Source: a virus | Virus record (IMG/VR): IMGVR_UViG_3300014497_000028 | Coordinates: 1 to 24,308 of that record | DNA length: 24,308 nucleotides | Strand: one strand, 5' to 3' | Shown: one piece after another, positions 46-22,156 of the stretch | Position numbering within the stretch: position 1 is the first letter of the stretch | Layout: each line of letters opens with the position of its first letter | The notes under the pieces: generated by a model | Seen by the model: only the letters and a program-made list of their open reading frames with translations | Databases searched by the model: none | Told to the model about the DNA's origin: nothing | Program-made: the position numbers and the translations under genes

Positions 46-1215
46 TTAGCGATTGATCTGGCTGGCGAAGTTGATGAGGTAGCGATCGGTGATGCGCTGG
101 CGCAGGGTGAGGTCTTCCAGCGGCGGAACCGGGGTGTAGTCGTAATCGAGCCAGAGCTTGCCGGCTTTGAGCGTGTCCTTGGTGTTGATGTCTTCGGGGT
201 ACCAGCAGCTCCCACCCATCAAATAACCAGCGGAAACCTTGCTGCGGAATTCGGCGTTGACGCCTTCGATCATGTCGCGCACCAACGAGGCGTGCAGCGG
301 CTTGTCCATGGCCCACATCTGCGTGCCGGCCATGGTGTCGGCCAGCACTTGGGCGGTGCGGGTGTAGCTCTCGAAAGCGAACAGCGGATCGTCGCTGCAG
401 GTGCGGCTGCCCCAGAAGCGCAAGCCGCCCTCGTTGATCAGCGTGGTGACCTCGTGGCCGTTGAGGTAGTTGGCGTCGGTGGCGGGGTTTTGCAGGTCCC
501 AGAACACATCGGCGTTGATACCGGTGACGCCGTTGACGGCGATGTTGGAGAGGGTTTTGTGCCAGCCGGTTTGCTGATCGATCTTGGCACGTAGACCGAG
601 GGCGCGAGCGGTGGCGGTGGCGTTGACGGTTTTGTTGGTGACGGTTTCCCAGCTGAGGAAGTCGGGCCAGATGACCATGACTTCCCGGGCGCCGAAATTC
701 TTGCGATAAGCGACCGCTTCTTCCTTGGTGTTGCAGCCCCAGGCGCTGACGTAGCTGAAGGCCCGTAGCTGCTGGGCGATGGTCGCGAGTGCGGTGGCGA
801 CGGGCAGGGTGTCCAAGCCTGGGACACCGAGAATACGCGGCACCAGGCCGAGCCGTGATTTGGCAGCGAGCAGGGCTTTCATGCCGGTGTATTTGCCCAG
901 CTCGGTGGTAGTGCCGATCAGGGCGCTGGTGGTCTCGGCTTCGTCCTGGCCTTCCTTCACGCGCACGACGATGACGTAGGGTTTGGTCTGGTCGGCAATG
1001 GCTTGCAGGCTGGCGGCAAGGGTGCCTTTAACACCGGCATTGCCGATGGCGGTCTGGATGCTGGTGATCAGGACGGGGGTGTCAAACGGGAAGACCGTCG
1101 CGTCGGCATCGTCGGCGGTGCACACCATGCCGATCACGGCGGTGGGGATGGTGCGGATCGGGCGTGAGCCATCGTTGAGTTCGATGACTCGCACGCCGTG
1201 AAGGTAGTCGGACAT
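46..1215 (-). CDS. FI: Contractile tail sheath protein, P2 gpFI-like
   Basis: This 389-residue protein has the length and sequence character of P2 gpFI (about 396 residues). It opens with MSDYLHGVRVIELNDG, followed by a stretch of the type IPTAVIGMVCTA. The conserved C-terminal part of phage sheath proteins is also present (EGGLRFWGSRTCSDDPLF near residues 265-282, then the IEGVNAEFR segment). Subunits assemble around the tail tube and contract on infection to drive the tube into the cell. The gene heads a tail transcript that continues into the tube gene. A TGT-N13-ACA box lies about 86 bases upstream of the start, and an 8-bp inverted repeat lies in the leader. There is no strong ribosome binding site before the ATG. 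Confidence 0.93.
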   Translation of the reverse strand: MSDYLHGVRVIELNDGSRPIRTIPTAVIGMVCTADDADATVFPFDTPVLITSIQTAIGNAGVKGTLAASLQAIADQTKPYVIVVRVKEGQDEAETTSALIGTTTELGKYTGMKALLAAKSRLGLVPRILGVPGLDTLPVATALATIAQQLRAFSYVSAWGCNTKEEAVAYRKNFGAREVMVIWPDFLSWETVTNKTVNATATARALGLRAKIDQQTGWHKTLSNIAVNGVTGINADVFWDLQNPATDANYLNGHEVTTLINEGGLRFWGSRTCSDDPLFAFESYTRTAQVLADTMAGTQMWAMDKPLHASLVRDMIEGVNAEFRSKVSAGYLMGGSCWYPEDINTKDTLKAGKLWLDYDYTPVPPLEDLTLRQRITDRYLINFASQINR

Positions 1216-1221
1216 GGTGCG

Positions 1222-1255
1222 GCCTGTGCGGTGAAGGTTAAGTCAGTGCACAGGC
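1222..1255. repeat. Inverted repeat in the leader of the sheath gene
   Basis: GCCTGTGC (1222-1229) and GCACAGGC (1248-1255) are exact 8-base complements separated by 18 bases, just upstream of the sheath start codon. No T-run follows on either strand, so it does not look like a simple intrinsic terminator. It may fold in the FI leader RNA and affect translation, or it may be chance; only the inverted repeat itself is seen. Confidence 0.4.
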
Positions 1256-1291
1256 TGCCGCGCGCAGGTCAATTCGTCGCGTGGTGAGGGT

Positions 1292-1310
1292 TGTAGGTGG
1301 TTTGAGTACA
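1292..1310 (-). promoter_or_regulatory. Candidate Ogr/Delta-type late activator box upstream of FI
   Basis: TGT (1292-1294) and ACA (1308-1310) are separated by 13 bases, and the dyad extends to GTTGT...ACAAC. P2 late promoters are known to carry a TGT...ACA dyad about 55 bases upstream of transcription start, bound by the zinc-finger activator Ogr; the published spacing I recall is 12. The centre lies about 86 bases before the FI start, which leaves room for a promoter and short leader. Two matching boxes occur at the other expected late promoters of this prophage. Confidence 0.55.
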
Positions 1311-1320
1311 ACGCATGTGT

Positions 1321-1884
1321 TTACCGGCGCTGCTGTTGTGGCTGTGTCGGCCATGCAATTGTGCTGGGGAAATGGTCTTGTTGCTCGATGCGGTTGAGCT
1401 CGACGCTGTAGCCCATCCAGCTCAGTAGGGATGCCTGTTCCTCAGGCGTGGCGGTGCCCAGTTTCTCTGCGTATTGAAGGGGTGCGATGCGCAGTTGGGC
1501 GTCACGCAGCAAGTGATCTCGATGCTCCAGGACTTGAGCACTTTGCGCCGCGCGTTGAGCAGATTGGTCGAGTGTCCATTGCCCATCCAACCATTTGAAA
1601 TGTTCGCCCGGCCACGGCTGAGTGGTCAGTTCCTCGGGCAGTTCTCCCAACTGTTGCCATGTCTGTTGCGTGCCGTCTGCTGTACGAAAAGCGGTGCCTC
1701 GCAGGTCGACCATTTGTTGAGCTGCTCCATCAATCAGAGCCCAGGTTTTGCCTGAATCGGGCGGTGCAAGTACCTTCGGGACTTGCACCGCGTTGCCGGG
1801 CAGTTGTGGACCGAAACCCGGAATGGCCGGGAAGGTGACCGGGCCAGAAAGGGCGCCCGCATCGTCAATCAGGTAGGTAATCAT
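1321..1884 (-). CDS. Tail fibre assembly protein (Caudo_TAP / gpG-like chaperone)
   Basis: This 187-residue protein lies directly downstream of the tail fibre gene. It has the layout of phage tail fibre assembly chaperones: a variable N-terminal part beginning MITYLIDDAGALSG, then a charged helical C-terminal region (about residues 110-185) of the type seen in Caudo_TAP proteins. Such proteins help fibre trimers fold and attach to the baseplate. The start is placed at the ATG at 1884 rather than the TTG just before it, because GAGG lies about five bases upstream. It begins seven bases after the fibre stop codon and is probably translated from the same mRNA. The tail (WPTQPQQQRR) is proline/glutamine rich. 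Confidence 0.75.
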   Translation of the reverse strand: MITYLIDDAGALSGPVTFPAIPGFGPQLPGNAVQVPKVLAPPDSGKTWALIDGAAQQMVDLRGTAFRTADGTQQTWQQLGELPEELTTQPWPGEHFKWLDGQWTLDQSAQRAAQSAQVLEHRDHLLRDAQLRIAPLQYAEKLGTATPEEQASLLSWMGYSVELNRIEQQDHFPSTIAWPTQPQQQRR

Positions 1885-1891
1885 CAAGACC

Positions 1892-3391
1892 TCAAATCAT
1901 TTTGATACGGCCGGGGTAGGCGATGTTGCGGGGGCGGGTTTCTGCGTTGCCGGCCCGAGCGATGTAGGGAGGTGACGTGTTTCTTCCCACCACATAGGAA
2001 TGCTGTCCGGTTCGGGGGAGATTTTCAGGCGTGAGCGTGTCGTGGCTACCCGTACCAGCCCCATACGAGATGCCGTGAGTGTGACGTTCGAAAGTGTCGG
2101 GGGACCATGAGCCCGCTACTCGCCCGATAACGTTCCACTCTCCATCGCCATCTTGTTGTAATGCATTCGAAACGACGATCTCATTGGCATTGATGGATAC
2201 GATGGTGGTGCCCCTCGGAACATCGCTGCCCTCCAGCGTCATGCCAATGGCTATGAGCGACCTTCCTCTGACGTCGGTAATAACGGCGCTACCGGATTTG
2301 GCAGCGCCCGAAATCGTCGATTTATCGACTTGTCGGCCTTCGTCCAATACCCGGAAAAATTCGCCTCGGGCTTCAGGTGCGCGAAACGTCGATTTGTCAT
2401 CGCCGCTGGTCCATCCGCCCTCCATGTGCCGCTGTCTTTCCGCGTTGAGCATTCCCGATTGTTGAGCGTGATCCCATAGCCATGGCCATTCAGTTCGTTT
2501 GAGCAGTTGCCCATTCAAGGCACCGTACCCGCCGGGACTGAATACGGTAGTGGTTTCGAAGACCGGGCGACCCAGCGGCGTGTTATCGAAGCGCCCAACC
2601 GGCCACCAACTCCCAGCCCCGTCGCTGCGCAAATGCCACCAATCACCCGCGCCCATCAGCACCAGGAAGGGATAGCCCGCCGGGTTCAAGTGAGTATGAA
2701 ATCTCAGTGTGTCTTTGCCTTTCGTCTTGATGACCAGACGATTGATGCTGTTGTCTTTGCGGTGAACAAGCAGATCGCGCGTGCCCACGGTGGCATCGGC
2801 CGGCGGCAGCTGGATGTTCAAAGCCACGGCGCTAGCGTCGATCAAGACGAAGCCCATTTCTGTGGGCTTTAACGCTCTGGATGACGACACCATGGTGAAG
2901 GCTGCGCCCGCATTGACCGACCGATCCACGTATTCGCGGGTGGCCAGGACCACGGACGGATCGATTTTGAGCTGAATGTTGGCGGTGCCGTTGGTGATGA
3001 TGTGCATCCGCACCACCTGGTTTCGCCCCGTGCCCTGAGCCAGAAGCGGTTTGTAGCTGGGTGCCAGATTCGCCACCGCGGAAAACACACCGTCCTTATC
3101 TTCAAGAGCCAACTCCCGCATCCACCAGCCGCCGACTTCGGGGGGCAACACCACTTCGGCAATCAACACGTTCGGGTCAGTGGGGGAGACGCGTAGTTGA
3201 TTCAGCGGCGCGCGGTACACCTGATTGAGCAACCGAGTCTGTGACGGATCCGGCACAGGGTCGCTGCCGTTGGCGTCACCGATCAGCATATGGCTCGGCT
3301 CCCAGGCAGTGCCGAGTGCGTCGCAGTTGGTTTTTTTGGCGGCTCCGAGATGAGTGAGCATGCCGCCGAATAGGGTGTTCTTATCAACCAT
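1892..3391 (-). CDS. H: Tail fibre protein, P2 gpH-like with tail-collar domain
   Basis: This 499-residue receptor-binding fibre is shorter than P2 gpH (about 669 residues). Residues 1-150 are the conserved P2-type anchor (MVDKNTLFGGMLTHLGAAKK; LNQVYRAPLNQLRVSP; PPEVGGWWMRELALEDKDGV). A coiled or beta shaft follows. The C-terminal half contains a phage tail-collar segment (LGRPVFETTTVFSPGGYGAL) and HTHGIS, and ends IAYPGRIKMI. Between residues of the type EFFRVLDEGRQVD and GRVAGSWSPDTFERH sits a module of roughly 70 residues with a G-x-DVPRGTTIVSIN-like repeat, apparently inserted into the collar domain. The start at 3391 matches the family; a longer open frame upstream only reads through gene I. 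It overlaps gene I by eight bases, suggesting coupled translation. Confidence 0.88.
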   Translation of the reverse strand: MVDKNTLFGGMLTHLGAAKKTNCDALGTAWEPSHMLIGDANGSDPVPDPSQTRLLNQVYRAPLNQLRVSPTDPNVLIAEVVLPPEVGGWWMRELALEDKDGVFSAVANLAPSYKPLLAQGTGRNQVVRMHIITNGTANIQLKIDPSVVLATREYVDRSVNAGAAFTMVSSSRALKPTEMGFVLIDASAVALNIQLPPADATVGTRDLLVHRKDNSINRLVIKTKGKDTLRFHTHLNPAGYPFLVLMGAGDWWHLRSDGAGSWWPVGRFDNTPLGRPVFETTTVFSPGGYGALNGQLLKRTEWPWLWDHAQQSGMLNAERQRHMEGGWTSGDDKSTFRAPEARGEFFRVLDEGRQVDKSTISGAAKSGSAVITDVRGRSLIAIGMTLEGSDVPRGTTIVSINANEIVVSNALQQDGDGEWNVIGRVAGSWSPDTFERHTHGISYGAGTGSHDTLTPENLPRTGQHSYVVGRNTSPPYIARAGNAETRPRNIAYPGRIKMI

Positions 3392-4007
3392 GAAGGTACA
3401 CGTCCAGTTCGTCGAGGGTGTAAATGCGGGTGCCGCCGTAGCCGTGAATGAACACGTCGATGTCCGGGTTGACCCACGGATAGACTTCGATTTCGTCGCC
3501 GTCATCGATGGCAATTGCCGCATGGGAGTCGACGCGAGTTTCCAGAATGATGTCGAGGCTGACCAAGTGGCGGGTGAGCGGCTTGGCGTCGTCGATGAGC
3601 CAGGTCAGCTCCTGGTACATCTGTTCGGTGATGCCGATTTCGGACACGCTGATGTTCATGGCAAAAGTCGCGCGAGGGCCGAAGGGGACGGTCTGCCACC
3701 ACTCCACGACTTCGATCACAAAGCCCAGTGGTTCGACGACGCGGCGCAATGAGCCGAGGGTGCCTTTGCGGGAGTGGATGTAGTAAGCGGAGCGGATGGC
3801 CGAGCGCTTGGCTGACTCGGGCCATTGGCTGTCCCAGCGGTCTACCGAGAAGGCCCAGGCCAAGTAGGGCAGCAAGGGCAGGGGGCAGCGGTCCGGGTTG
3901 TAGAGTTGGCGTAGTGGGATGGGGACGCGCTGGATCTGGGCCAAGGCTTGAGCGGCTTGGTGCTCCAGGGGTGTGGCGTTGCGCGGGAGCAGTGACAGGT
4001 CAGTCAT
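3384..4007 (-). CDS. I: Baseplate/tail protein I, P2 gpI-like
   Basis: This is a protein of about 207 residues (208 if the preceding ATG at 4010 is used) of the phage tail protein I family. It opens MTDLSLLPRNATPLEHQAAQ and contains the typical segments LPYLAWAFSVDRWDSQW and YYIHSRKGTLGSLRRVVEPL. It forms part of the baseplate wedge and connects to the tail fibres. Of the two adjacent ATGs, the one at 4007 sits seven bases after GGGG, a better spacing than the ATG at 4010. The gene overlaps the end of J and the start of H, as is usual for this tightly packed operon. Confidence 0.9.
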   Translation of the reverse strand: MTDLSLLPRNATPLEHQAAQALAQIQRVPIPLRQLYNPDRCPLPLLPYLAWAFSVDRWDSQWPESAKRSAIRSAYYIHSRKGTLGSLRRVVEPLGFVIEVVEWWQTVPFGPRATFAMNISVSEIGITEQMYQELTWLIDDAKPLTRHLVSLDIILETRVDSHAAIAIDDGDEIEVYPWVNPDIDVFIHGYGGTRIYTLDELDVYLHG

Positions 4008-4917
4008 CATCAAGCCCCAATGACAGGTCAATGTTTGTGCAGTAGGGCGCCTGGTAAGGAGTGGCGACAATGTCGTCCCAGTCTTCCAGCACTACCTTGC
4101 GCACGCCCTCGACGTGCAGCGAGGCGTGGAGGATGGATTCGGAAATCTCCAGGCCCAATCGACGGCGTTGGCGCACAAACTTCAATAGCCGTTCTTTGGC
4201 CGCTTTCAGGATCAGCTCTGATTCAGGGCCTGATGTCAGAAGATAAAGCTCTGCGCTGATCTGATAGTTGATGATCTGTGCGCTCTGGACTGTCAGGCGA
4301 TCGCCTAAAGGGCGGCGGTCATCGTCGCTGAGGTAGGCTTTAACGATGGCCAGCAGATCCGCTGAAGCGTGGCCATTGCCCAATGCCGATTGCACGGTGA
4401 TGACCGCTTCCGCGGGTTTTGGGCTTTCTGCGGTGGCGTCGGCAACGCGACCGTCGGCGGAACGTGCGTGGAAGATGTAGCTGTTGCGCGGGCCTGCTGT
4501 GCTGAGACCTTCCCAGGCCATTTGGGCGCGTTCGCGCAGGCTGTCGTCGCTTTCCATCAACTTTGGCAGCGGCGGTAAGGCTGAGAGATTGGCGACCTGA
4601 ATGACCAACCGTTTGACGTTGTAGTTGGCCGCCAGGTTCTCCAGATCGGCGCCCTTGGCCAAGGCCAGCATGTTGGCCACTGATGCCTCATTGACCCGCT
4701 GACGCCAGATCATTTCGCGGTAGGCGTTCTCCTCGAGCAGTTTGGTCAGCGGCTCCGATTCCATGTTCAGGCGCGAGGCGATTTCCGCCTGTTCTTCGGC
4801 TGGCCAGAGGCTGATGGCGTAGGCTTTGCGCTCGGTGAGGATCTGTTCGTAATCGATTTGTTCGACCACTTGCGGTGCCGGGAGCTGGCTTAGGTCGATG
4901 GCGACGAAGGTATTCAT
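4000..4917 (-). CDS. J: Baseplate assembly protein J, P2 gpJ-like
   Basis: This 305-residue protein matches the P2 gpJ length (302) and style. It opens MNTFVAIDLSQLPAP. The segment LLEENAYREMIWRQRVNEAS (about residues 60-79) is strongly characteristic of the family, and a central part reads RERAQMAWEGLSTAGPRNSY. Baseplate J proteins form the wedges that trigger sheath contraction. The gene starts inside the last four bases of W (ATGA overlap) and ends inside the start of I, so W-J-I are translationally coupled. Confidence 0.93.
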   Translation of the reverse strand: MNTFVAIDLSQLPAPQVVEQIDYEQILTERKAYAISLWPAEEQAEIASRLNMESEPLTKLLEENAYREMIWRQRVNEASVANMLALAKGADLENLAANYNVKRLVIQVANLSALPPLPKLMESDDSLRERAQMAWEGLSTAGPRNSYIFHARSADGRVADATAESPKPAEAVITVQSALGNGHASADLLAIVKAYLSDDDRRPLGDRLTVQSAQIINYQISAELYLLTSGPESELILKAAKERLLKFVRQRRRLGLEISESILHASLHVEGVRKVVLEDWDDIVATPYQAPYCTNIDLSLGLDDD

Positions 4918-5258
4918 GCGCTGCCCCCCAGCTGCAGAGGAACGCTTAGGCTCAACGGCTCGTTGGTATCGACGATGCTGCCCTCAAGTTCCAGGGTTGA
5001 TTGGCCTGCGAACGTGGCGCCGTGAAATTGCACGCGGCTGAGGCTGATGCGCGGTTCCCAGCGCATCATGGCCATGACGGTGGCCGCGTAGACCTGCAAC
5101 CGGGTGAAGTCGTTGAATGGCTGGTCCACCAGCTCGGGCAACAAACTGCCGTACTCGCGGCGCATGATGCGGGTGCCGAGACGGGTGGTCAGGATGTCGG
5201 TGATGGACTGTGTGATGTGATCGGGCAGATTAATGGCGGCGCCGGTTTGTCGGTTCAT
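4914..5258 (-). CDS. W: Baseplate wedge protein W, gp25/gpW family
   Basis: This 114-residue protein of the GPW_gp25 family is close to P2 gpW in length. It carries the typical core ITDILTTRLGTRIMRREYGS, then LLPELVDQPFN. The family corresponds to T4 gp25, which links baseplate wedges to the first sheath ring; despite the lysozyme-like fold label it is structural. It overlaps V upstream and J downstream by four bases each. Confidence 0.92.
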   Translation of the reverse strand: MNRQTGAAINLPDHITQSITDILTTRLGTRIMRREYGSLLPELVDQPFNDFTRLQVYAATVMAMMRWEPRISLSRVQFHGATFAGQSTLELEGSIVDTNEPLSLSVPLQLGGSA

Positions 5259-5827
5259 TGCGGCAGGCCTGTTATGCCGCTGCCAGACATGACGCCGCTG
5301 TGGGGGTGTTTGACGAGGCTGATGTTGGCCGCGACTACGTCTACTGAGGCGGTGATTTTGCCGGTGATGGTTTGGTTGCCGGTTTGGGTGTAGTCGCCCT
5401 CATGGGTGATTGGGCCGACGATGTGAATGCCGCCTGTACTGGTCAGATTGATTGTGCCGCCGTCGACGAGGATGGCATTCAGATGGTGGGCAACGCAGTC
5501 GTACTCAATCACCGAGCCGTCGCGGTAGGTGCGACGGTGCAGGCCTTCGCGGTCGCCGTTGGCGGGAATGTGGTCGCTGAACAGGCCGGTGAGGACTATG
5601 CCGTTGCCTAGCTGGCCGGAGGGGCTGAACAGGATGACTTGTTCGTTCACGGTTGGCGGGTTCCACTCGCGGTCAGCTCCGGCTCGCGAGGCAATCCAAG
5701 GGAGCCAGCCAGTTGTGAGGGCGCCGGTTTTAACTTGTGCGCGTGGAGGCTTCATCTGGATGTCGGCGATGGTGCCGAAGCGGATGAGGTTTTCGATTTG
5801 GCGGGCGAGGGTGGCTGAGTCGTTCAT
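5255..5827 (-). CDS. V: Baseplate spike protein V, P2 gpV-like
   Basis: This 190-residue protein is the membrane-piercing spike at the tail tip. Its N-terminal half is an OB-fold baseplate domain (ENLIRFGTIADIQ; GWLPWIASRAGADREWNPP; EQVILFSPSGQLGNGIVL). The C-terminal half is a repetitive beta-helix needle (GTINLTSTGGIHIVGP, then THEGDYTQTGNQTITG). It ends with a histidine-rich tip HPHSGV; P2 gpV uses an HxH motif there to bind iron. The ribosome binding site is weak. A TGT-N13-ACA box centred about 57 bases upstream probably marks the V-W-J-I-H-G transcript, although that spacing leaves little leader. Confidence 0.92.
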   Translation of the reverse strand: MNDSATLARQIENLIRFGTIADIQMKPPRAQVKTGALTTGWLPWIASRAGADREWNPPTVNEQVILFSPSGQLGNGIVLTGLFSDHIPANGDREGLHRRTYRDGSVIEYDCVAHHLNAILVDGGTINLTSTGGIHIVGPITHEGDYTQTGNQTITGKITASVDVVAANISLVKHPHSGVMSGSGITGLPQ

Positions 5828-5874
5828 GGCGCTGATGGTGGAGCTGTGTGCGACTCATCGCAGCTTTTATGATT

Positions 5875-5893
5875 TGTGGTTTTGGTCTATACA
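5875..5893 (-). promoter_or_regulatory. Candidate Ogr/Delta-type late activator box upstream of V
   Basis: TGT (5875-5877) and ACA (5891-5893) are separated by 13 bases, the same arrangement as before FI and between O and P. It lies between V and the inserted HNH gene, where P2 has its PV late promoter. The centre is about 57 bases from the V start codon, closer than at the other boxes. Confidence 0.45.
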
Positions 5894-5895
5894 GG

Positions 5896-5913
5896 AGACC
5901 GATAAATCGGTCT
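5896..5913. promoter_or_regulatory. Perfect 18-bp palindrome in the V / HNH intergenic region
   Basis: AGACCGATAAATCGGTCT is a perfect palindrome lying three bases from the candidate activator box and 43 bases before the HNH gene start. A further GGTCT copy lies at 5885-5889. On the plus strand it is followed by GATTTTTA, so it could be a weak terminator hairpin (7-bp stem, TAAA loop). Its position between divergent genes also fits an operator. The sequence does not decide between these. Confidence 0.45.
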
Positions 5914-5956
5914 GATTTTTACTCGCCAATTAAATTATCAATAAAAAGAGGAATAT

Positions 5957-6757
5957 ATGAAGTCGTGTGCATACTGTGGAATGCCTGGGGTGATGACTAA
6001 GGAACATATTTGGGCTGCCTCATTGATCAGAAAGTATAATGACCTTCTTACATATAATAAAAGTAACCACAAATTCTATAAAGGGGAGGCGGTCGTAAAA
6101 GACGTTTGTGCGAATTGCAATAATGTGGTTTTAGGAAGGCTTGATAACTATCTGAGTGGGTTGTTCGATAAAGCATTTCAGCGATTTTTAACTCCGGGTG
6201 AAACTGCGGTTCTTGAGTACGATTACGACTTGCTACTTAGAGTGCTTCTAAAGATTTCTTACAATTCAGCAAGATCTGTAGGGAATGAAAAAGCATCAAA
6301 GCATTTAAAAAAGTTTGTTCGATATATATTGGAGGGTACTCATAGAGGCAGTATTATGTTGCGACTTCAGATCGTGACATCTTCGAGGAAAGTTGACGTT
6401 GAAGGAAATGTTCAAGGACTCTTGAATCCGGAAATATTGAGATCTGGTGAGATTCCTTATGACGGCGTATTAGCAGATCGCTTCATGGTTCGGATGGTCG
6501 CTATAAACTGCTTTTGGTTTTATATTATTTCCCCTTATAAAAATGAATCTGCCCATAAGTGGAAGGCCTTTCTACAAGGCTTTATTCAACAGGAAGGCAT
6601 GATGCGACCTGGAGTAGTTGTTGGTCCGACGGTGAATCGCATGATTATTCCACCTAATAAGACTACTTACTTTCATCCGGTTCTCTACGACAATCTTCTA
6701 AGTGCTGACCATCCAAATAATAGGGATTTTCAGGAGCAGTTAGATCAGCTTAATTGA
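5957..6757 (+). CDS. HNH-type zinc-binding putative nuclease (moron gene)
   Basis: This 266-residue protein has an N-terminal treble-clef/HNH signature: Cys4-x2-Cys7, Thr14-Lys-Glu16-His17-Ile-Trp, then Cys51-x2-Cys54-Asn-Asn. The C-x2-C / EH / C-x2-CN pattern is that of HNH endonuclease-like proteins, but the catalytic assignment of His17 and Asn55/56 is inferred. The remaining roughly 200 residues are unassigned and could be a sensor or specificity domain. The start has AGAGGA five bases upstream. The gene is clearly more AT-rich than its phage neighbours, lies on the opposite strand, and ends inside the last 13 bases of gene S, so it looks like a later insertion between V and S. It may be a phage-exclusion gene or a homing-type nuclease. 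Confidence 0.65.
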   Translation: MKSCAYCGMPGVMTKEHIWAASLIRKYNDLLTYNKSNHKFYKGEAVVKDVCANCNNVVLGRLDNYLSGLFDKAFQRFLTPGETAVLEYDYDLLLRVLLKISYNSARSVGNEKASKHLKKFVRYILEGTHRGSIMLRLQIVTSSRKVDVEGNVQGLLNPEILRSGEIPYDGVLADRFMVRMVAINCFWFYIISPYKNESAHKWKAFLQGFIQQEGMMRPGVVVGPTVNRMIIPPNKTTYFHPVLYDNLLSADHPNNRDFQEQLDQLN

Positions 6758-7200
6758 GAAAGTAGCTTGTCACGAATCAGATCAAAATCTGATTCGGTAA
6801 AGCCCAGTAGTTCGCGGCGTTCATAAGTGACGTTCGGAGCGCCACGTTCAGCACTATCCCTTAATCCGTACTGATGTACTCTGGCAATCTTGGCAGTCCG
6901 CGCGGTGAAGCCCACACTGATAGCGTTCCTGTCGCCTTGTAGCTTCAGAAAGCTGGCTGTACGAAGCTTCTGGAACATCTTCACCTTCCGCTTCACCTTC
7001 CCTTGTTTACCGCGAAGATTGCGCTGTTTACGCGGCGTGTAACTGCTGCCGTCCGGTTCCTGTTGGGCAATGACTCGTTTCTGCTGGCTACGACGCAACG
7101 TCTGGCCGAGGCTGCGGGCGAGCCGACTCCGCGATACCGGTTCAAGTTTGTCGAGTAAGCCAGCCGCCCAGTTCTCCAGCGCATCCAGTCGGTTAGTCAT
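6745..7200 (-). CDS. S: Tail completion / virion morphogenesis protein S, P2 gpS-like
   Basis: This 151-residue protein agrees with P2 gpS (150 residues). It begins MTNRLDALENWAAGLLDKL. It has the basic central segment with KRVIAQQEPDGSSYTPRK and the motif VHQYGLRD found in the phage virion morphogenesis family. It helps terminate the tail for joining to the head. The ATG at 7200 is chosen because it overlaps the R stop codon by four bases (ATGA), the usual R-S coupling. Its 3' end overlaps the convergent HNH gene by 13 bases. Confidence 0.9.
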   Translation of the reverse strand: MTNRLDALENWAAGLLDKLEPVSRSRLARSLGQTLRRSQQKRVIAQQEPDGSSYTPRKQRNLRGKQGKVKRKVKMFQKLRTASFLKLQGDRNAISVGFTARTAKIARVHQYGLRDSAERGAPNVTYERRELLGFTESDFDLIRDKLLSQLS

Positions 7201-7673
7201 TTCGGCAGTACCCATTCGCTATTGGTACCTGGGGCGCCGGGTATCCAGTTCGGATCGAGGAAGTCGGCAGCTCGTTGCGGTTCGCCGGGATGGCGAATGG
7301 TGGTGTTGCCATGGTTGTCTTTGCCCACCACTACGCGTTCGGTCAGGGGGAGGGTCAGACTCATGTCAACTTTGCTGTTATCAAGAATGTCAGCCTCAAA
7401 CTTGATGCCATCAGCGGCTTTGTTCAGGTTCTCCAGCAACTCGGACTGATGCACGCTCAACCACCCTAGTAGGGGCAACATGACGCTATCGGCATGACCC
7501 GCATAGTCGGTCAGGATGATTTGCAGATCGAAGCTGTACTCGAACGACAGGCTCGCCGCAGCAGTGCAACGCACTTTGCCGTTGTCGATGAAAATTAGTA
7601 ACCGGTCAGGGTTGTGCTTGAGTTCGGGGATTGTAGCGAGCAGGTGCGTGCGGAGATTTTCGGGTTTATTCAT
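7197..7673 (-). CDS. R: Tail completion protein R, P2 gpR-like
   Basis: This 158-residue protein is similar in length to P2 gpR (155) and has the family's opening, MNKPENLRTHLLATIPELKH, with the segment NPDRLLIFIDNGKVRCT. It caps the tail at the head-proximal end together with S. Just upstream, where lysis genes normally lie on the same strand, there is opposite-strand AT-rich sequence. Transcription of R and S would therefore need read-through from O across about 1.2 kb, or a new promoter. Confidence 0.9.
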   Translation of the reverse strand: MNKPENLRTHLLATIPELKHNPDRLLIFIDNGKVRCTAAASLSFEYSFDLQIILTDYAGHADSVMLPLLGWLSVHQSELLENLNKAADGIKFEADILDNSKVDMSLTLPLTERVVVGKDNHGNTTIRHPGEPQRAADFLDPNWIPGAPGTNSEWVLPK

Positions 7674-8133
7674 GTAGGAAACCTGGAATGTTCGGCTTTA
7701 GTGATCATTTCGCTCAGACTGCTATGAAGCGGATCTAGTAGGTCCGCTAGCTATACTTAATGATGGAAACAGCTCCGCTTGGCGGAGAACATCCCTGCCG
7801 GAAAATATTCGTTGAGTATAGAAATTAATGGACAACGGCTGACTGCGGGCCATCAGCAATCAGAAAAGGCTAGTCGGCGGGTGATTGTTGATGGCGATGA
7901 TAATGGTGTTAAGCGCTTCTATTTTCCGTTGCGTAAATCTGTAGCTGGAATGGCGACAAACAATCGCTGATTCAGCAGGCAGACGCGAAGGAGAGGAGAT
8001 TATTCCTACTCTTTGACGGTGGGGGGCTAGACAGCGTGATGTCAAAATAGTAGCGTTGCATAGGTTTGCTCTATCAAGAAACTTTAAGTGTAATTCTGAT
8101 CACTTAAAACCGGGGTTTAGAAAGGAGTTTAAA
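7674..8133. other. Intergenic stretch with a possible gene fragment
   Basis: No convincing complete gene. The plus-strand frame 7764-7970 is open after a stop codon at 7761, with only a TTG (7779) as a possible start. It reads protein-like (e.g. IPAGKYSLSIEINGQRL, then VIVDGDDNGVKRFYFPLRKS), so it may be the 3' end of a disrupted gene. Two short hairpins lie upstream: AGCGGA...TCCGCT (7728-7748) and CTCCGC...GCGGAG (7773-7787). No holin, endolysin or spanin sequence is recognisable here. Confidence 0.35.
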
Positions 8134-8394
8134 ATGGCACGATGGACCGCATCTTATAACGAGCGGAAACAGTTTGCTCAGGTTAATCGCGATATCCCAA
8201 TATTTGGCCTTGTTCAGATTATTTTGCATAATGAAAACGTAATCGAAGGCTTAATTTGTGGTCACCGGGTTGGTAACAACGCTGGGCAAGGTGGCTGGGA
8301 ATACTATGGAGTATGTGAAGTTGCAGTAGACGATGGTCCTCGTTTGCTTATTGATTATTTGGATATTAAAAGCATTATCGAAGTCGGAGAGTGA
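8134..8394 (+). CDS. Small protein of unknown function (86 residues)
   Basis: I do not recognise this protein. The ATG at 8134 has an excellent ribosome binding site, AAAGGAG, seven bases upstream, so this start is preferred over an in-frame ATG at 8056. It encodes an acidic soluble protein beginning MARWTASYNERKQFAQVN and ending IKSIIEVGE. It contains a glycine-rich stretch GHRVGNNAGQGGWEYYGV. There is no signal peptide, membrane helix or cysteine pair. It lies on the strand opposite the tail genes, in AT-rich DNA, within the gap where the lysis cassette is expected. A holin or antiholin role is unlikely because no hydrophobic segment is present. Confidence 0.6.
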   Translation: MARWTASYNERKQFAQVNRDIPIFGLVQIILHNENVIEGLICGHRVGNNAGQGGWEYYGVCEVAVDDGPRLLIDYLDIKSIIEVGE

Positions 8395-8461
8395 TTTGCT
8401 CTCTAAAGTTACTGGGCTACTGTGGGATAAGTAGGCGGTTTTCATTTTGTTGGGGTGAGTA

Positions 8462-8791
8462 ATGGCGAAGAAGTCGATGTTTTTTTCTGTGACTGTTAAG
8501 GATGGTTATGATGAGGTGGTGCTTGATCCCGTTCCTGCAAGAACTAAGGATCATGCGACTCTCTATTTTCAAACAAATACTATAAAGGTTACTGCTGTTA
8601 AATATTTGGGTCAGTGGGATGTGTTAAGTTATAGTGATCCGTCTAATGGTGTTGTTTTCTATGCTATAGATCCGATGACAGCGGGGCCTAATGCAGTAAC
8701 TTATCAGTATGAAGTAAACCAGATTGGCTACAATCATTTGAAAAGTTTATTTTTAAAGCAGTATATGTCTGGGCTGGATGAATTAGATTGA
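8462..8791 (+). CDS. Small protein of unknown function (109 residues)
   Basis: I do not recognise this protein. It starts MAKKSMFFSVTVKDGYDEVV with GGGGTGAG just upstream and ends GLDELD. The composition suggests a beta-rich soluble fold, and there is no transmembrane segment, signal peptide or metal-binding motif. It follows the 86-residue gene by 67 bases on the same strand, and both are AT-rich compared with flanking R and X. They may be co-transcribed accessory genes (a moron pair), perhaps with partner functions, but no toxin or antitoxin family is recognisable. Confidence 0.6.
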   Translation: MAKKSMFFSVTVKDGYDEVVLDPVPARTKDHATLYFQTNTIKVTAVKYLGQWDVLSYSDPSNGVVFYAIDPMTAGPNAVTYQYEVNQIGYNHLKSLFLKQYMSGLDELD

Positions 8792-8870
8792 TTTATAGAG
8801 TTAAAAGAGCGAAGTGGCGTCGAATTGAAGCTCAGCTTGCGCTGCGCTGGCGTCATTAGTTGCCGTGTAT

Positions 8871-9083
8871 TCAGTCCCATAGGTTCACCATCTGCCGCTG
8901 AGGGGCGGCAGTTTGTGTTTCGGGCATGTACACGGTCAGGCCTTGGGGCAATGTCGGACCGTGGTCGGCCAGACCGGGATTGGCCGCAAGTACCGCCTCG
9001 GTAACGCCAGCGGTCCGGCCGTAGTGGCGCCAGCAGAGGGTATCGACGGTTTCGTTTTGTTGGGCCCGCACAGTGACGGTCAT
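8871..9083 (-). CDS. X: Tail protein X, P2 gpX-like (LysM-like)
   Basis: This 70-residue protein is of P2 gpX type (67 residues). It has the compact LysM-like pattern: NETVDTLCWRHYGRTAGVTE, VLAANPGLADHGPTLPQGL, then VYMPE. The family is needed for tail assembly and probably binds the tail hub. Its ATG overlaps the L stop codon by one base (TAATG), so it is coupled to L. Confidence 0.92.
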   Translation of the reverse strand: MTVTVRAQQNETVDTLCWRHYGRTAGVTEAVLAANPGLADHGPTLPQGLTVYMPETQTAAPQRQMVNLWD

Positions 9084-9544
9084 TAGATCAATTCCACCGT
9101 GGTGCGACCGAGGCCGAGGAAGTCGCGCACGGCCCAGCGCTGGTCGCGGCGCAGTTCGTCGATGCTCGGGGTGAGGTCGTCTGCGTTCTGGTGGCCGCTG
9201 TTGGTGCTGTCGTAGGAGCGGTAGCGCTCGCAGATCTCCGCGCCAGTCGCGGTGTAGATCGCTCGCTGGTACAGGTGAATGTAGTGCGACACGCCTTCGA
9301 CCTGATCAGCCGGGACATCGGCGAGGGTGGGGTAGCCCTCGGCCTGTTTGGTTCGGCGCCAGTCGGTGAACTCGCGGTTAACACTGATGGCGGCAGAGAT
9401 GGTCGCGGTTTCCAGTCGGATCGCGGTGACGCTGGCGTCGATTCTCAGCGTGCCGCGCACGTCGTCGAGATTGATCGATGGCCAGAAAGCGTCGGTATTG
9501 ATGTGGCCGGCGAGGGCTTTGCCGGTCGCTACGAATCCGCTCAT
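9083..9544 (-). CDS. L: Head completion/stabilisation protein L, P2 gpL-like
   Basis: This 153-residue protein matches the P2 head completion family (gpL about 169 residues), with FWPSINLDDVRGTLRIDAS and AVRDFLGLGRTTVELI at the C-terminus. It joins the filled capsid to the connector and stabilises packaged DNA. The leader upstream of its ATG contains GTTGTAGGT (near 9558-9566), which repeats the left half of the late activator box before FI but lacks the ACA half. Confidence 0.9.
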   Translation of the reverse strand: MSGFVATGKALAGHINTDAFWPSINLDDVRGTLRIDASVTAIRLETATISAAISVNREFTDWRRTKQAEGYPTLADVPADQVEGVSHYIHLYQRAIYTATGAEICERYRSYDSTNSGHQNADDLTPSIDELRRDQRWAVRDFLGLGRTTVELI

Positions 9545-9647
9545 GGTTCTGCGCTCTGTTGTAGGTCGCCGGTGGTCGGGGCTTCACGTTCAGGTACGTG
9601 GCCTGGCCGATCCGCCCCGAGCCGGCGGGGTGCGTGGGGACGCTCGG

Positions 9648-10346
9648 TTAGCCGCCGGTGGCGGCGAGTTTGTTGAGCAGGCGATCGGCCCGCTCCAGAT
9701 CCTTTTTGCCACCGCAGGCGTCGTGCCGTTCGATGGCTGTTTTCAGCAGGTCGATGCCGGCCTGTACTTGACTGGGCTGGCCGGGGAATTCTTCAGTGAT
9801 ACCTTCCAGAGTGGCGCGGCCCATGGCGAGGAACAGCTTGGCGCGGGCTTGGTCGGGCATGTCTTCGGCTTCGGTCAGTTCGGCGGCGCGATGCAGGGTG
9901 GCCAGGTCGAACGGTTCGTTGATCTTCTGGGCACTCAATGCTGCCGTGGCGATGTCTTCGGCTACCAGGCAGCCCAAGGTACGAGCGAAGCGATCCGGCA
10001 TGACCATCTTGTGCTTCAGCACGTATTGGGCAATGTCGAGGCCGCCGTTAAAGTCGCCAGCATCGAAGCGCCAGACCATGACGGTGGTCATCACTTCGTC
10101 CTGAGCACCCAGGCCCGCTTCCAGGACGCCTTGCACGTAGGGCACGTAGTCGGGCAGCAACTGGCGTTTGAGTTCGGCTTTGCCCTGATTCGACTGGATC
10201 TGTTTCAGACGCAGGCGATCCTGCAGCAGCTGGTTGAGCTGATGTTCGTAGGCGGTGGCGCCGGCCATGGTTTGGTTGGGCTCGACCGCGGCCGCCTCGA
10301 TGGCGGCCGTGACGCGCAGGAAGTGATGACGGCAGGGGTTGGTCAT
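9648..10346 (-). CDS. M: Terminase small (endonuclease) subunit M, P2 gpM-like
   Basis: This 232-residue protein is close to P2 gpM (247). It opens with the conserved MTNPCRHHFLRVTAA and carries the core VMVWRFDAGDFNGGLDIAQY. In P2-type phages gpM recognises cos and cuts it, working with ATPase gpP from the opposite strand. AAGG lies about eight bases before the start. It follows N by ten bases. Confidence 0.93.
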   Translation of the reverse strand: MTNPCRHHFLRVTAAIEAAAVEPNQTMAGATAYEHQLNQLLQDRLRLKQIQSNQGKAELKRQLLPDYVPYVQGVLEAGLGAQDEVMTTVMVWRFDAGDFNGGLDIAQYVLKHKMVMPDRFARTLGCLVAEDIATAALSAQKINEPFDLATLHRAAELTEAEDMPDQARAKLFLAMGRATLEGITEEFPGQPSQVQAGIDLLKTAIERHDACGGKKDLERADRLLNKLAATGG

Positions 10347-10356
10347 GTCGGCTGCC

Positions 10357-11367
10357 TTACGATGCGATTTCGATGTTTTCAGCGAGGGCCGCGCATTCCA
10401 GATCCTCGATGACGTAGGCGTCGTTGACCGACTCGTAATTTTCGATGCGGTCGCGTTTGGCGTTGTCGAGGACGGTGCGACGGCGGCTGCCTTCTTGCCA
10501 GTAGATCGACAGGTTTTCGAGCTTGGTCACCAACAGCCCACGCGCTGGGAAGTAAGGCACTCGCACCGCCGGCAAGTTGCCCAGGCGTTTCTGGCTGGTG
10601 ACGATGTCGGCGGCCAGCATTTCGGTTGGGGCGTTGTCCTTGTTGATGATCGGGAAGTACTTGTCGGCCAGCAGCTGGCGGCCGCAGATCACCACCAGGG
10701 CGGGGTCTTCCTGATACCAGGGCGCGATGAACTCTTCGACCATGCTGAACACCAGGGCGTCGAGGTTGGTGAAGTCTTTGCCGGCACCGATGGCGATCTT
10801 GCCCGAGCCTTCGCCGATTTCCTTCATCACTCGCGCGGCGTTTTCGGTGCGCATCTTTTGCAGCCAGCCGATGTTGACGTCCTGGCGCAGTGGGTTTGTC
10901 GCCGGGTTGGAGGTAGGGGCGCGGCTGGTACCGTTCCAACCGATCAGGATGCGGTCCAGTGCCTGGCGCTTCAGGATGGCGTCGCGGATGCGTGCCTGGA
11001 AGTCGGGGAACTTGGCCCAGGCATCCAGCTTGCTATAGCGCAGGTGGGTGTCGAAGTTGGTCTGCGAGCAGAAGTAGCCACGTTCATCGAGGGTGGTGAT
11101 GTCGCTGGTTTCGCGGTCTTTCTGGGTGGTGTCGGTGGTGCCGGCGTTCGGTCCGCCGATGCCCATGCCGATCTTTTCACCCATCTGCTCGGTGACGCCG
11201 TAGATGTTGATCGCGCTGAGGAACTGACTGGATTCCTGCATGCGGGTTTCCAGCGTTTGGGTGACGCTCGGCGCGGTGGCGAATTTGGTGGTGACGTCGG
11301 GTACGCCGTGCAGTTTGGTCAACTGGCCGAGGTAGGCGTTGAAGAGGTTGCGGGTGTCGTTGCGCAT
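10357..11367 (-). CDS. N: Major capsid protein N, P2 gpN-like
   Basis: This 336-residue major capsid protein of the P2 family (P2 gpN 357 before processing) carries RNLFNAYLGQLTKLHGV near the N-terminus, DERGYFCSQTNFDTHLRY centrally, and AYVIEDLECAALAENIEI at the end. The N-terminal peptide is expected to be removed by the O protease during head maturation. AAGGAC lies about eight bases before the ATG. It is encoded directly after O, so scaffold and capsid share a message. A long opposite-strand open frame over this gene is a codon-bias shadow. Confidence 0.94.
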   Translation of the reverse strand: MRNDTRNLFNAYLGQLTKLHGVPDVTTKFATAPSVTQTLETRMQESSQFLSAINIYGVTEQMGEKIGMGIGGPNAGTTDTTQKDRETSDITTLDERGYFCSQTNFDTHLRYSKLDAWAKFPDFQARIRDAILKRQALDRILIGWNGTSRAPTSNPATNPLRQDVNIGWLQKMRTENAARVMKEIGEGSGKIAIGAGKDFTNLDALVFSMVEEFIAPWYQEDPALVVICGRQLLADKYFPIINKDNAPTEMLAADIVTSQKRLGNLPAVRVPYFPARGLLVTKLENLSIYWQEGSRRRTVLDNAKRDRIENYESVNDAYVIEDLECAALAENIEIAS

Positions 11368-11397
11368 GGAGGTCGTCCTTGGTGACTCGGTCCGGGT

Positions 11398-12228
11398 TCA
11401 GCAGTCGGTCATGAGTTGGTTGCCGCCGCCGGTGACCGGAGGGCGTGTCTTCTGGTTGGGGTCTTGGGTGATTGCGAGTTTGGTTTTTAGCTCGGTGAAG
11501 TCTTTGCTCAGTTGGTCGAGCTGGGTTTTCAGACCTGCCGAAAACTGTTTCTCGGCGGCCAGTTGGTCGGGCAGGTCTTTGACGTGTTCGGCGATGGTTT
11601 CGACGGCTTGGCCGATCTGGGCAAACTCGCTGTCGTCCTTGGCCTGTTTGCCTTTGAGCAAGGTTTGTACCTTGCTGAAGAGCTGGGCACCGAGGCTGGG
11701 TTTTTCTTCGAACTCTTCAAACGTCAGTTCGGCTTCCACGGCCTCGGTGAACATTGAGGTTGCGGAGTAGTGGCGATCTTTGAAGGGGCTGACGTCGGGC
11801 TTCTGCGCCGAGAAGGCCAGTACGTCGGTGCCTAGGCTGGCCGGGGAGTCGGTGACCGCCAGGCCGACGATGTAGGCCTCACCGGTGTCGGCGAAGCTGT
11901 CGTCGATTTCAATCGAGGTGTAGATCTTCTGCTTGGCCTTGTTCATGGCGATCAGTTCGGCGGTGGGCTCGACCTGGGCGAACAGGGCCAGTTTCTTCTG
12001 ACCGTTGATGTCGATTTCTTCGGTCTTCACCGCGAGGACATCGCCGTAGGCCTTGAACGGGCTGTCTGGCAGCAGGCTGCGGAAATGCTCCAGCCAGATG
12101 CGGGCGCCGTAGGTGGTCGGGTTGAAGTTTTTGGCGGCCTGTTCCAGCCAGTCGCGTTTGATGGTGCGCTTGTCCGAGGTCGCGCTTTCGACGGCGACGC
12201 GGAACCAGTTGCTGCGAAATTTCTTCAT
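11398..12228 (-). CDS. O: Capsid scaffold and maturation protease O, P2 gpO-like
   Basis: This 276-residue bifunctional protein (P2 gpO 284) has an N-terminal serine protease and a C-terminal scaffold. It begins MKKFRSNWFRVAVESATSDK. Asp19 and His48 sit at the same positions as the P2 catalytic residues, and Ser105 (in IYTSIEID) fits the nucleophile (P2 Ser107). The C-terminal 100 residues are helical with a coiled-coil character (AAEKQFSAGLKTQLDQLSKD) and end GGNQLMTDC. The start is the family ATG at 12228; the open frame extends upstream without similarity. It diverges from P across a short region that holds a candidate late activator box 83 bases upstream. Confidence 0.92.
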   Translation of the reverse strand: MKKFRSNWFRVAVESATSDKRTIKRDWLEQAAKNFNPTTYGARIWLEHFRSLLPDSPFKAYGDVLAVKTEEIDINGQKKLALFAQVEPTAELIAMNKAKQKIYTSIEIDDSFADTGEAYIVGLAVTDSPASLGTDVLAFSAQKPDVSPFKDRHYSATSMFTEAVEAELTFEEFEEKPSLGAQLFSKVQTLLKGKQAKDDSEFAQIGQAVETIAEHVKDLPDQLAAEKQFSAGLKTQLDQLSKDFTELKTKLAITQDPNQKTRPPVTGGGNQLMTDC

Positions 12229-12301
12229 GCCGGGGATTCTCAGTGCGTTGCAATGAGGGGCATGTTCGGGACGCGCGCGGGTGGCGGCAATGAGGCGGGA
12301 C

Positions 12302-12320
12302 TGTAGGCGGGGAGGGCACA
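12302..12320. promoter_or_regulatory. Candidate Ogr/Delta-type late activator box between O and P
   Basis: TGT (12302-12304) and ACA (12318-12320) are 13 bases apart, the same geometry as before FI and V, and the left half TGTAGG is identical to that before FI. It lies in the 139-base divergent O/P region, where P2 keeps its PO and PP late promoters. Its centre is 83 bases from the O start and 57 bases from the P start. A symmetric site could serve both directions, but this is inference. Confidence 0.5.
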
Positions 12321-12367
12321 TGGGGCGGTGCTATTGAGTCGCGGGCTGGGGCGGCAGCATCGCGGCC

Positions 12368-14125
12368 ATGACTACGACCGCACTGTTGCCCATCGATCCG
12401 CGACGCCAATCCAAATTTCTGTACTGGATGGGCTGGCGTGTCTGCGAGATCGCCGAGGCGACGGGGGAAAAGGAGAAAACGCTGCATAGCTGGAAGGCCC
12501 GGGACGCTTGGGACCGGGCGGACAATGTCGAGCGCATTGGCGGGGCGTTGGAAGCGCGGCTGGTGCAACTAATCCTCAAGGACGGTAAGAGCGGCGGTGA
12601 TTTCAAAGAGATTGATCTGCTGCACCGGCAACTTGAGCGGCAGGCGCGTATCCAGCGCTTTCAGGGTGGCGGTACTGAGACAGATCTCAATCCGAACCTG
12701 GCCAAGCGCAACGAAGGGCCGAAGAAGAAAACCCCGAAAAACGATATTAGCGAAGACCAGATCGAGCTGCTGCGCGAAGCGTTTATCGATGGCTGTTTCG
12801 ACTACCAGAAGGATTGGTATCGGGCTGGCAATCAGCGCACCCGCGTCATTCTCAAGAGTCGGCAAATTGGCGCGACTTACTACTTTGCCCGTGAGGCGTT
12901 TATCGATGCCCTGGACACGGGGCGGAATCAGATTTTTCTGTCTGCTTCGAAGAACCAGGCCTACCTGTTTCGTGGGTACATTCTGGCGTTTGCCCGGGAG
13001 GTGATTGGGGTCGAGCTAACCGGTGATCCGATCGTCCTGCCCAACGGTGCCGAGTTGTATTTTCTCGGGACCAATGCGCGTACCGCCCAGGGGTACCACG
13101 GTAATTTCTACTTTGATGAGTTCTTCTGGACGTTCAAGTTTGAGGAGCTGAACAAGGTCGCCTCGGGCATGGCGATGCACAAGAAGTGGCGCAAGACCTA
13201 TTTCTCGACGCCGTCCAGCATGGCCCATGAGGCGTACACCTTCTGGACGGGGGAGCGCTTCAACAAGGGTAAGCCAGCGGCGCAGCACACGAAAGTGGAT
13301 ATCTCACATGGATCGCTGCAGCAGGGGCGACTTTGCGAAGACCGGGTGTGGCGGCAGATCGTCAACATCCTGGACGCGGAGCAGGGCGGGTGTGACCTGT
13401 TCGACGTTGAAGAGCTGCGCCGTGAGTACAGCTCTGAGGCGTTCGCCAATCTGTTGATGTGCGACTTTGTCGATGACGGAGCGAGCATCTTTCCGCTGGC
13501 GTTGTTGCAGTCGTGCATGGTCGATAGTTGGGTGGAGTGGGCTGAGGACTACAAGCCGTTTGCCATGCGGCCGTTTGGCGATCGGCAGGTGTGGATGGGG
13601 TATGACCCGGCTGAGACGGGCGATTGTTCCGGATTGGTGGTGGTCGCGCCGCCGTTGGTTCCGGGTGGGAAGTTTCGTGTGCTTGAGCGGCATCAGTTCA
13701 GGGGTATGGATTTCGCTGCGCAGGCCGCTTTTATCAAGAGTGTTTGCGACCGGTACTGGGTGACCTACATCGGTATCGATGTCACTGGGCTAGGCAGCGG
13801 CGTAGCGCAGCTGGTGCGCCAGTTCTTCCCGGCTGTGACCACTTTCAGCTATTCGCCCGAAGTTAAAACGCGGTTGGTTCTCAAGGCCTACGACGTGATT
13901 CGCAAGGGGCGGCTGGAGTTTGATGCGGGCTGGACTGATATGGCGCAGTCGCTGATGGCGATTCGTAAGACGGTTACGTCTGGTGGGCGTCAGTACACCT
14001 ATACCGCTGGGCGCAACGACAACACCGGTCACGCTGATCTGGCGTGGGCGCTCTTTCATGCATTGCATAACGAACCGCTTGAGGGGCAGACGGCTGCCAA
14101 TACTGGGCGGATGGAGATTTATTGA
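12368..14125 (+). CDS. P: Terminase large (ATPase/nuclease) subunit P, P2 gpP-like
   Basis: This 585-residue protein closely matches P2 gpP (590). It drives DNA packaging into the procapsid. Order of parts: an N-terminal helix-turn-helix-like segment (VCEIAEATGEKEKTLHSW, residues 25-42); an ATPase with a Walker A-like stretch KSRQIGATY (163-171) and Walker B YFDEFFW (248-254); and a C-terminal RNase H-like nuclease with the expected acidic residues Asp413 (GYDPAETGD), Asp471 (IGIDVTG) and Asp557 (GHADLAW). All key residues are intact. The ribosome binding site is weak. Its TGA overlaps the portal ATG by one base. Confidence 0.96.
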   Translation: MTTTALLPIDPRRQSKFLYWMGWRVCEIAEATGEKEKTLHSWKARDAWDRADNVERIGGALEARLVQLILKDGKSGGDFKEIDLLHRQLERQARIQRFQGGGTETDLNPNLAKRNEGPKKKTPKNDISEDQIELLREAFIDGCFDYQKDWYRAGNQRTRVILKSRQIGATYYFAREAFIDALDTGRNQIFLSASKNQAYLFRGYILAFAREVIGVELTGDPIVLPNGAELYFLGTNARTAQGYHGNFYFDEFFWTFKFEELNKVASGMAMHKKWRKTYFSTPSSMAHEAYTFWTGERFNKGKPAAQHTKVDISHGSLQQGRLCEDRVWRQIVNILDAEQGGCDLFDVEELRREYSSEAFANLLMCDFVDDGASIFPLALLQSCMVDSWVEWAEDYKPFAMRPFGDRQVWMGYDPAETGDCSGLVVVAPPLVPGGKFRVLERHQFRGMDFAAQAAFIKSVCDRYWVTYIGIDVTGLGSGVAQLVRQFFPAVTTFSYSPEVKTRLVLKAYDVIRKGRLEFDAGWTDMAQSLMAIRKTVTSGGRQYTYTAGRNDNTGHADLAWALFHALHNEPLEGQTAANTGRMEIY

Positions 14126-22080: not shown

Positions 22081-22098
22081 AACTTCACCGAGAGTAAA

Positions 22099-22119
22099 AA
22101 TTCTGCTTATAACAGAATT
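22099..22119 (-). promoter_or_regulatory. Inverted repeat overlapping the likely promoter of the STAND gene
   Basis: AATTCTG (22099-22105) and CAGAATT (22113-22119) form a perfect 7-bp dyad with a 7-base centre that reads TTATAAG on the minus strand, like a -10 element. It lies 19 bases upstream of the chosen start. A repressor bound here would block transcription. No regulator gene lies next to it, and no good -35 element was seen. Confidence 0.45.
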
Positions 22120-22156
22120 CATAAAGGCGTGGTGGAAAGCCCGTCCGGTAAGCCAT

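Follow-up and report, generated by a model that had tools for sequence, protein, structure and literature searches.

Probable Ogr-type activator boxes at the late promoters of a P2-like phage, and an indication that their spacing is a lineage character

The window analysed here is the whole of a 24,308-base virus record from IMG/VR (IMGVR_UViG_3300014497_000028) and covers the late region of a P2-like phage; the predictions below were made from sequence alone. FI (tail sheath), V, S, L, M, N, O, P and the portal gene Q are present and are all recognised by Pfam, in agreement with the gene names (FI, V, O, P and others) assigned in an earlier note on this DNA. The subject of the analysis is a dyad, TGT-N13-ACA, that lies before FI (1292–1310), before V (5875–5893) and between O and P (12302–12320), exactly as that note had claimed. 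On the predicted layout, these three boxes serve four late promoters, namely PF, PV and the divergent pair PO and PP (Table 1). The centre of the shared box is 82.5 bases from the start codon of O and 56.5 from that of P. The predicted transcript starts lie 55–56 bases from the box centre, as for a P2-type dyad (about 55). The P2 late-promoter consensus, as given in the available sections of PMC3931495, is TGT-N12-ACA, which matches the spacing of 12 that the earlier note had given for P2; the spacing in the window is 13.

For comparison, relatives of the window's capsid gene were collected as 80 loci from viral contigs and 80 from bacterial genomes (handles of the form L001), and further relatives were collected by scans starting from phage SEN8 and from a Halomonas phage. 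In the 220 bases upstream of each gene, all spacings from 4 to 21 were counted and compared with shuffles. Excluded before counting were duplicates, as judged by the last 120–150 upstream bases, upstream regions that were short or contained N, and genes whose starts were unaligned within 15 residues (gene-by-gene N13 count) or 12 residues (count by lineage). Among these spacings 13 alone stands out, and only at the operon heads: upstream of O in 85 of 136 relatives (expected 2.8), of P in 88 of 129 (expected 3.1), of V in 74 of 105 (expected 3.2) and of FI in 9 of 24 (expected 1.0), the last gene being mostly beyond the fetched stretch, with 24 distinct upstream regions usable. The internal genes L (0/124), N (0/142), M (0/131) and X (0/133) have no N13 box upstream, and S (3/109, expected 3.5) and R (7/117, expected 2.0) have few. 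The half box that had been noticed before L (near 9558) is thus attributed to chance. Shoulders at N16 and N19 in the relatives were set aside as double half-sites of the form TGTTGT...ACAACA rather than distinct spacings.

When the promoters are aligned on the box, a -10-like hexamer, [TCG]AnnnT, starts exactly 35 bases past the last base of the gene-facing half-site. All four promoters of the window have the hexamer at exactly this distance, including both directions from the 12302 box. The same register is found in the window's group for V (55/66), P (74/90), O (68/83) and FI (8/9), in the SEN8 group for V (44/53), P (41/41) and FI (11/11), and in the Halomonas-phage group for V (19/19), P (20/20) and O (19/19). 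For V in the window's group, averaging over all tested places gives a background of about 2/66.

Chance matches to so short a pattern are to be expected in a GC-rich phage genome, and the raw count in the window would allow this explanation for the three sites: TGT-N13-ACA occurs seven times, whereas 100 shuffles average 3.89 and eight of them reach seven or more; TGT-N12-ACA occurs three times, versus 3.59 in shuffles. The N13 count is non-significant; the unusual part is the location together with the downstream hexamer. Combinations of box and -10 number five in the window, against a shuffle mean of 0.32 and a maximum of three (300 shuffles), and the exact register at every window promoter is likewise hard to reconcile with chance. 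The comparison that the earlier note had set beforehand, namely of the motif's frequency within genes with that before operons, was run on 159 loci (2.55 Mb), in which the density of N13 is 10.95 per kb in late-promoter intervals versus 0.088 per kb elsewhere, a difference of about 120-fold. The hexamer is in register for 172 of the 194 N13 boxes inside these intervals versus 27 of the 222 outside. Upstream of V, moreover, the bases between the halves vary widely among the window and its close relatives L001, L002, L004, L007 and L081, and the two halves and the spacing of 13 are kept. On these sequence comparisons chance matching is already refuted as an explanation, and we regard it as extremely improbable. 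The enrichment at operon heads and the -10 register bear out the proposal of the earlier note that the boxes are late-promoter activator sites.

Table 1. Coordinates of the late promoter elements and operon-heading genes in the window. Transcript starts are predicted.
Feature	Position	Strand	Remarks
PF activator box, TGT-N13-ACA	1292–1310	-	dyad centre 85.5 bases upstream of FI start codon
PF -10-like hexamer, CAGCCT	1252–1257	-	predicted transcript start ~1245
FI, tail sheath, heads F operon	46–1215	-	Pfam PF04984, E 1.1e-28
PV activator box, TGT-N13-ACA	5875–5893	-	centre 56.5 bases upstream of V start codon
PV -10-like hexamer, CACCAT	5835–5840	-	predicted start ~5828, 0–1 base before V start codon (leaderless)
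V, baseplate, heads V operon	5255–5827	-	Pfam PF04717, E 3e-13
Activator box for divergent PO and PP, TGT-N13-ACA	12302–12320	both directions	
PO -10-like hexamer, GAACAT	12262–12267	-	predicted start ~12255, leader ~27 bases
PP -10-like hexamer, CAGCAT	12355–12360	+	predicted start ~12367, 0–1 base before P start codon (leaderless)
O, capsid scaffold, heads O operon	11398–12228	-	Pfam PF05929, E 5.4e-105
P, terminase ATPase, heads P operon	12368–14125	+	Pfam PF03237, E 5.7e-62; PF06056
Candidate fifth box, TGT-N13-ACA	7940–7958	-	faces R and S; weaker than the other three
Candidate R-S -10-like hexamer at 35, CATTAT	7900–7905	-	predicted start ~7893, leader ~220 bases

The spacing differs among P2-like phages. 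In the interval between O and P, which was read in 15 named phages, N13 is found in Dobby, D14A, KS14, LPM4 and a Mannheimia phage, N12 in SEN8 and two Klebsiella phages, and N14 in a Halomonas phage; SEN4 also has an N12 match in this interval, but at another distance. The relatives of SEN8 (Felsduovirus) have N12 at P (41/41), V (53/55) and FI (11/11), and the close relatives of the Halomonas phage have N14 at P (20/20) and V (19/21). In the window's group N13 is at the expected place in 90 of 133 upstream regions for P, 66 of 105 for V and 9 of 24 for FI, and N13 is the rule in this branch (Pseudomonas, Burkholderia, Cupriavidus and others).

Within a single phage the promoters nearly always have one spacing. 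Of 145 phages, 140 have the same spacing at P and V, against a mean of 57.7 and a maximum of 77 in 10,000 shuffles; these counts come from phages sharing kinship and are not independent. If the -10 element is required, a common spacing is seen in 127 of 128 phages, and the unambiguous P/V pairs with a -10 agree in 99 of 99 cases (46 with 12, 33 with 13 and 20 with 14). After this filter, two of the five mismatched phages (L155 and L052) have N13 at V and two (L018 and L459) are left without a qualified V box; the fifth is considered below. A terminase tree was made from the 160 loci with both spacings, of which 156 had enough terminase sequence and were reduced to 48 representatives by clustering at 95 percent with equal spacing. 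On this tree the P spacing needs three changes, and V follows the change at P in 2.9 of three independent pairs on average and never moves in the opposite direction. One of the three shifts is that of L058, with N14 at P, V and FI within an N13 neighbourhood. The O/P box of L279 (Halomonas phage 4908, about 1132–1157), with N14, is a perfect 26-base palindrome. Together these data indicate that a spacing of 12, 13 or 14 is a lineage character, nearly always equal at all late promoters of one phage. Measured from the box centre, the -10 peak is at +46.0 for N12, +46.5 for N13 and +47.0 for N14; the near half is thus fixed relative to the -10 element, and only the far half moves.

In the model that we propose, an Ogr-type zinc-finger activator of the phage would bind the boxes at PF, PV and the shared PO/PP site. 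Each box would comprise two half-sites in inverted orientation, TGT(a) and (t)ACA, with 13 bases between them, probably contacted by two Ogr subunits. The gene-facing half-site would end 34 bases upstream of [TCG]AnnnT and the RNA would start about seven bases past the hexamer, which would leave O and FI with leaders of about 30 bases and V and P with 0–1 base. Upon a shift in spacing, the gene-facing half and the -10 element would stay in register and the far half would be displaced. We assign a probability of roughly 0.87 to this reading, in which the boxes are Ogr-type sites at four late promoters, with a lineage-specific spacing and a fixed near half. The boxes and the -10 element are read directly from the sequence, and so are their constant distances, the spacing that the boxes share and its joint shift on at least three occasions.

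Several points weigh against it. The hexamer is a loose pattern that was defined once the alignments had been inspected, and an independent check on P2 and 186 therefore matters. Applied to the P2 record, the rule gives two annotated starts exactly (3127 and 3016) and a third within one base (10307 versus 10308), and 17626 needs a distance of 36; that is, the hexamer is at 35 in three of the four P2 late promoters and at 36 in PF. In 186 the rule gives 3753, exactly where the annotated p12 feature ends; at pJ it gives 14157 versus the annotated 14159, two bases beyond. Upstream of O in the SEN8 group, the hexamer is at 35 in 0 of 41 cases. N13 is missing from the expected place in 43 of 133 P regions and 39 of 105 V regions of the window's group, and PSP3, K139, ENT90, KL3 and phiT5282H have no exact TGT-Nk-ACA (k 9–17) between O and P. 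L065 has N13 at P but N12 at V and is still discordant after the -10 filter. The independent spacing shifts number only three, with which a sign test cannot reach 0.05. Finally, no Ogr/Delta gene is found in the 24-kb fragment that forms the window. Such a gene is present in 40 of the 43 relatives' records searched first, among them those of seven of the window's eight nearest relatives (L002, L004, L005, L007, L008, L034 and L081, not the fragment L001), as well as in 17 of 18 records of named phages and 24 of 30 additional ones.

As to what sets the spacing, we infer that the geometry of the cognate Ogr protein may dictate it. Under this proposal the spacing would be a regulon-wide character set by Ogr that moves by one base, at all promoters together and in the far half only, and two Ogr positions may contribute; we offer it tentatively, as a possibility short of even odds. 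The Ogr proteins of N12 phages are of one distinct type (KERY.QC in most), those of N13 phages are of several types and those of N14 phages of two clearly different types. Two alignment columns, chosen post hoc, each hold one residue throughout the eight Halomonas-group N14 rows and L058 that occurs in none of the 32 rows from N13 phages: in one column it is an Arg, three residues past the fourth cysteine, and in the other an Asp that belongs to a PSD motif. When L058 is swapped for 49 other sequences, three of these share one N14-specific column and none shares two. From this comparison the L407 row was removed because its pattern match was spurious, and two Ogr loci did not match the pattern; a sequence search found no solved Ogr structure. 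The shared Arg and Asp are regarded as a lead only.

Two other explanations of the spacing were weighed against control by Ogr. The spacing might merely be inherited by descent, unrelated to the activator, with boxes that drift slowly and are shared by relatives for that reason. The strong clustering of spacing on the terminase tree is what slow drift would produce, and so is the small number of independent shifts. The boxes at O/P, V and FI are, however, separate sites many kb apart that nevertheless shift jointly, as in L058, and the Halomonas group has N14 at both P and V beside the N13 neighbours L146, L159 and L411. Independent drift also predicts phages with mixed spacing, of which there is one in 128 when qualified boxes are compared. 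We consider descent alone improbable. Somewhat less probable still, in our view, is that the far half is read by a host protein or another second factor, whose geometry the spacing would then reflect. The constancy of the near half relative to the -10 element while the far half moves would fit such a partner, as would the weak right half (CCA or CAA) in P2 and 186. The O/P box argues otherwise: it is bidirectional, so that whichever half is near for PO is the far one for PP and vice versa, and both halves carry the same letters in inverted order.

The fixed register also bears on the transcript leaders. Where the -10 element is present in register, the hexamer is followed after 4–10 bases (6 or 7 in nearly all cases) by an ATG or GTG in frame. 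This holds for V in 55 of 55, 43 of 44 and 18 of 19 cases in the window's, SEN8 and Halomonas groups, respectively, and for P in 74 of 74, 41 of 41 and 20 of 20. No start codon is found at this distance for O (0/68 and 0/19) or FI (0/8 and 0/11). In the window's group, sequences resembling a ribosome-binding site are almost lacking upstream of V (1/105) and P (3/133) and more common upstream of O (42/137) and FI (13/24), with exceptions in the Halomonas-group V (10/21) and the SEN8-group FI (0/11); these Shine-Dalgarno counts use start codons inferred from alignments, and those for SEN8-group V are some bases out. The V and P operons are thus predicted to be leaderless in nearly all these phages. 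Since the P transcript of P2 has a leader of 23 bases, a leaderless P is a prediction for the other branches. The V and P operons encode low-copy parts (baseplate, portal and terminase), and the capsid and sheath operons have leaders; the presence or absence of a leader would be a simple way to set the amounts of product.

Most of what is described here is of a known kind. P2 has the same four operons, one box for the divergent pair, a box about 55 bases before the start and, according to its record, a V transcript that starts on the V start codon. It differs from the window in its TGT-N12-CCA boxes (CAA at PV), which have a weak right half, whereas the window has N13 and complete right halves. 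The B-dependent promoters of 186 resemble those of the window in that the annotated B sites have [TCG]AnnnT at 35 bases, and differ in having TGT-N12-CCA, with a spacing of 12 and a weak right half. In the P. aeruginosa Citexvirus phages Dobby and D14A, the O-P interval contains TGT-N13-ACA about 57 bases upstream of P; both phages have an Ogr gene, and they differ from the window in the spacer bases of the O/P box. In phiRSY1, the motif TGTTGT-(X)13-ACAACA is described at four late promoters, centred 50–90 bases before the start codon, and the same motif in phiRSA1 (PMC5694545, available sections); the half-sites are longer than in the window, and these sections mention neither a -10 register nor a comparison of lineages nor a leaderless pattern. 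The earlier note had proposed that this phage has a spacing variant matched to its own activator. Its spacing of 13 does differ from the 12 quoted for P2, yet it is not peculiar to this phage and was already known from phiRSY1 and phiRSA1. None of the literature found by our search, which covered the available sections of PMC8537503, PMC7067206, PMC3091744, PMC10612066 and PMC4633059 among others, reports a spacing of 14, compares the spacing between lineages or describes a fixed -10 register; this is not proof of their absence in print. In Smp131 (L273), the late-promoter positions 4381–4398, 10964–10981 and 14928–14946 cited in the available sections of PMC3931495 do not hold TGT-N12-ACA in the record used here, the numbering of which may differ.

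What the comparison adds is a spacing that is lineage-wide and regulon-wide, a near half that stays fixed, and the prediction that the V and P operons are leaderless. The fixed register provides an annotation rule that predicts the late transcript starts of P2-like phages. A more general question is how the specificity of a transcription factor can change in concert with that of all its scattered sites; this system reduces it to an integer (12, 13 or 14), a protein of 70–100 residues and four promoters per phage, and natural examples of each spacing exist, so that the question can be tested with natural parts.

A candidate fifth box at 7940, with its own hexamer in register, is likely a promoter site for R and S. 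L004 retains the box together with the hexamer, which is weak evidence because the region is about 87 percent identical to the window; the box also overlaps a short plus-strand open reading frame (ORF, 7779–7970). The remaining matches in the window were rejected: those to N12 (3240, 23128 and 23778) are away from operon starts and at chance level, and those to N13 (8914, 19824 and 21986) are without a hexamer at 35 in either direction.

Between X and R (7680–8870), the lysis-like ORFs of other relatives are absent from the window and from L004; two small ORFs on the opposite strand (8134–8394 and 8462–8791), without a match in Pfam, PHROGs or PADLOC, occupy their place. The 109-residue one of the two was found, within the viral collection, only in the L004 record. 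A search of that record for lysis genes with PF01471, PF00182 and PF00959 gave no match, and the PF00182 control was also without a match. In the record of the L004 phage (L496, region 7467–8479), D is followed by a cytosine methylase gene of 283 residues, and the short ORF preceding this gene may encode a Com-type zinc protein. A 266-residue plus-strand ORF (5957–6757), divergent from V, lies between S and V and has no match in Pfam, PHROGs or PADLOC. The S-V gap is 65–90 bases in many relatives and 1–3 kb in others, and therefore looks like a cargo site; P2 has Orf30 there. Right after the portal gene, on the opposite strand, a 468-residue ORF (15186–16592) contains a Schlafen AlbA_2 domain. 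Further along, a 481-residue ORF (22239–23684) matches DUF2971 and the PADLOC candidate PDC-S31, and a 1257-residue ORF (18349–22122) matches PADLOC PD-Lambda-4_A over nearly its full length (1133 bits) and is a candidate anti-phage defence gene.

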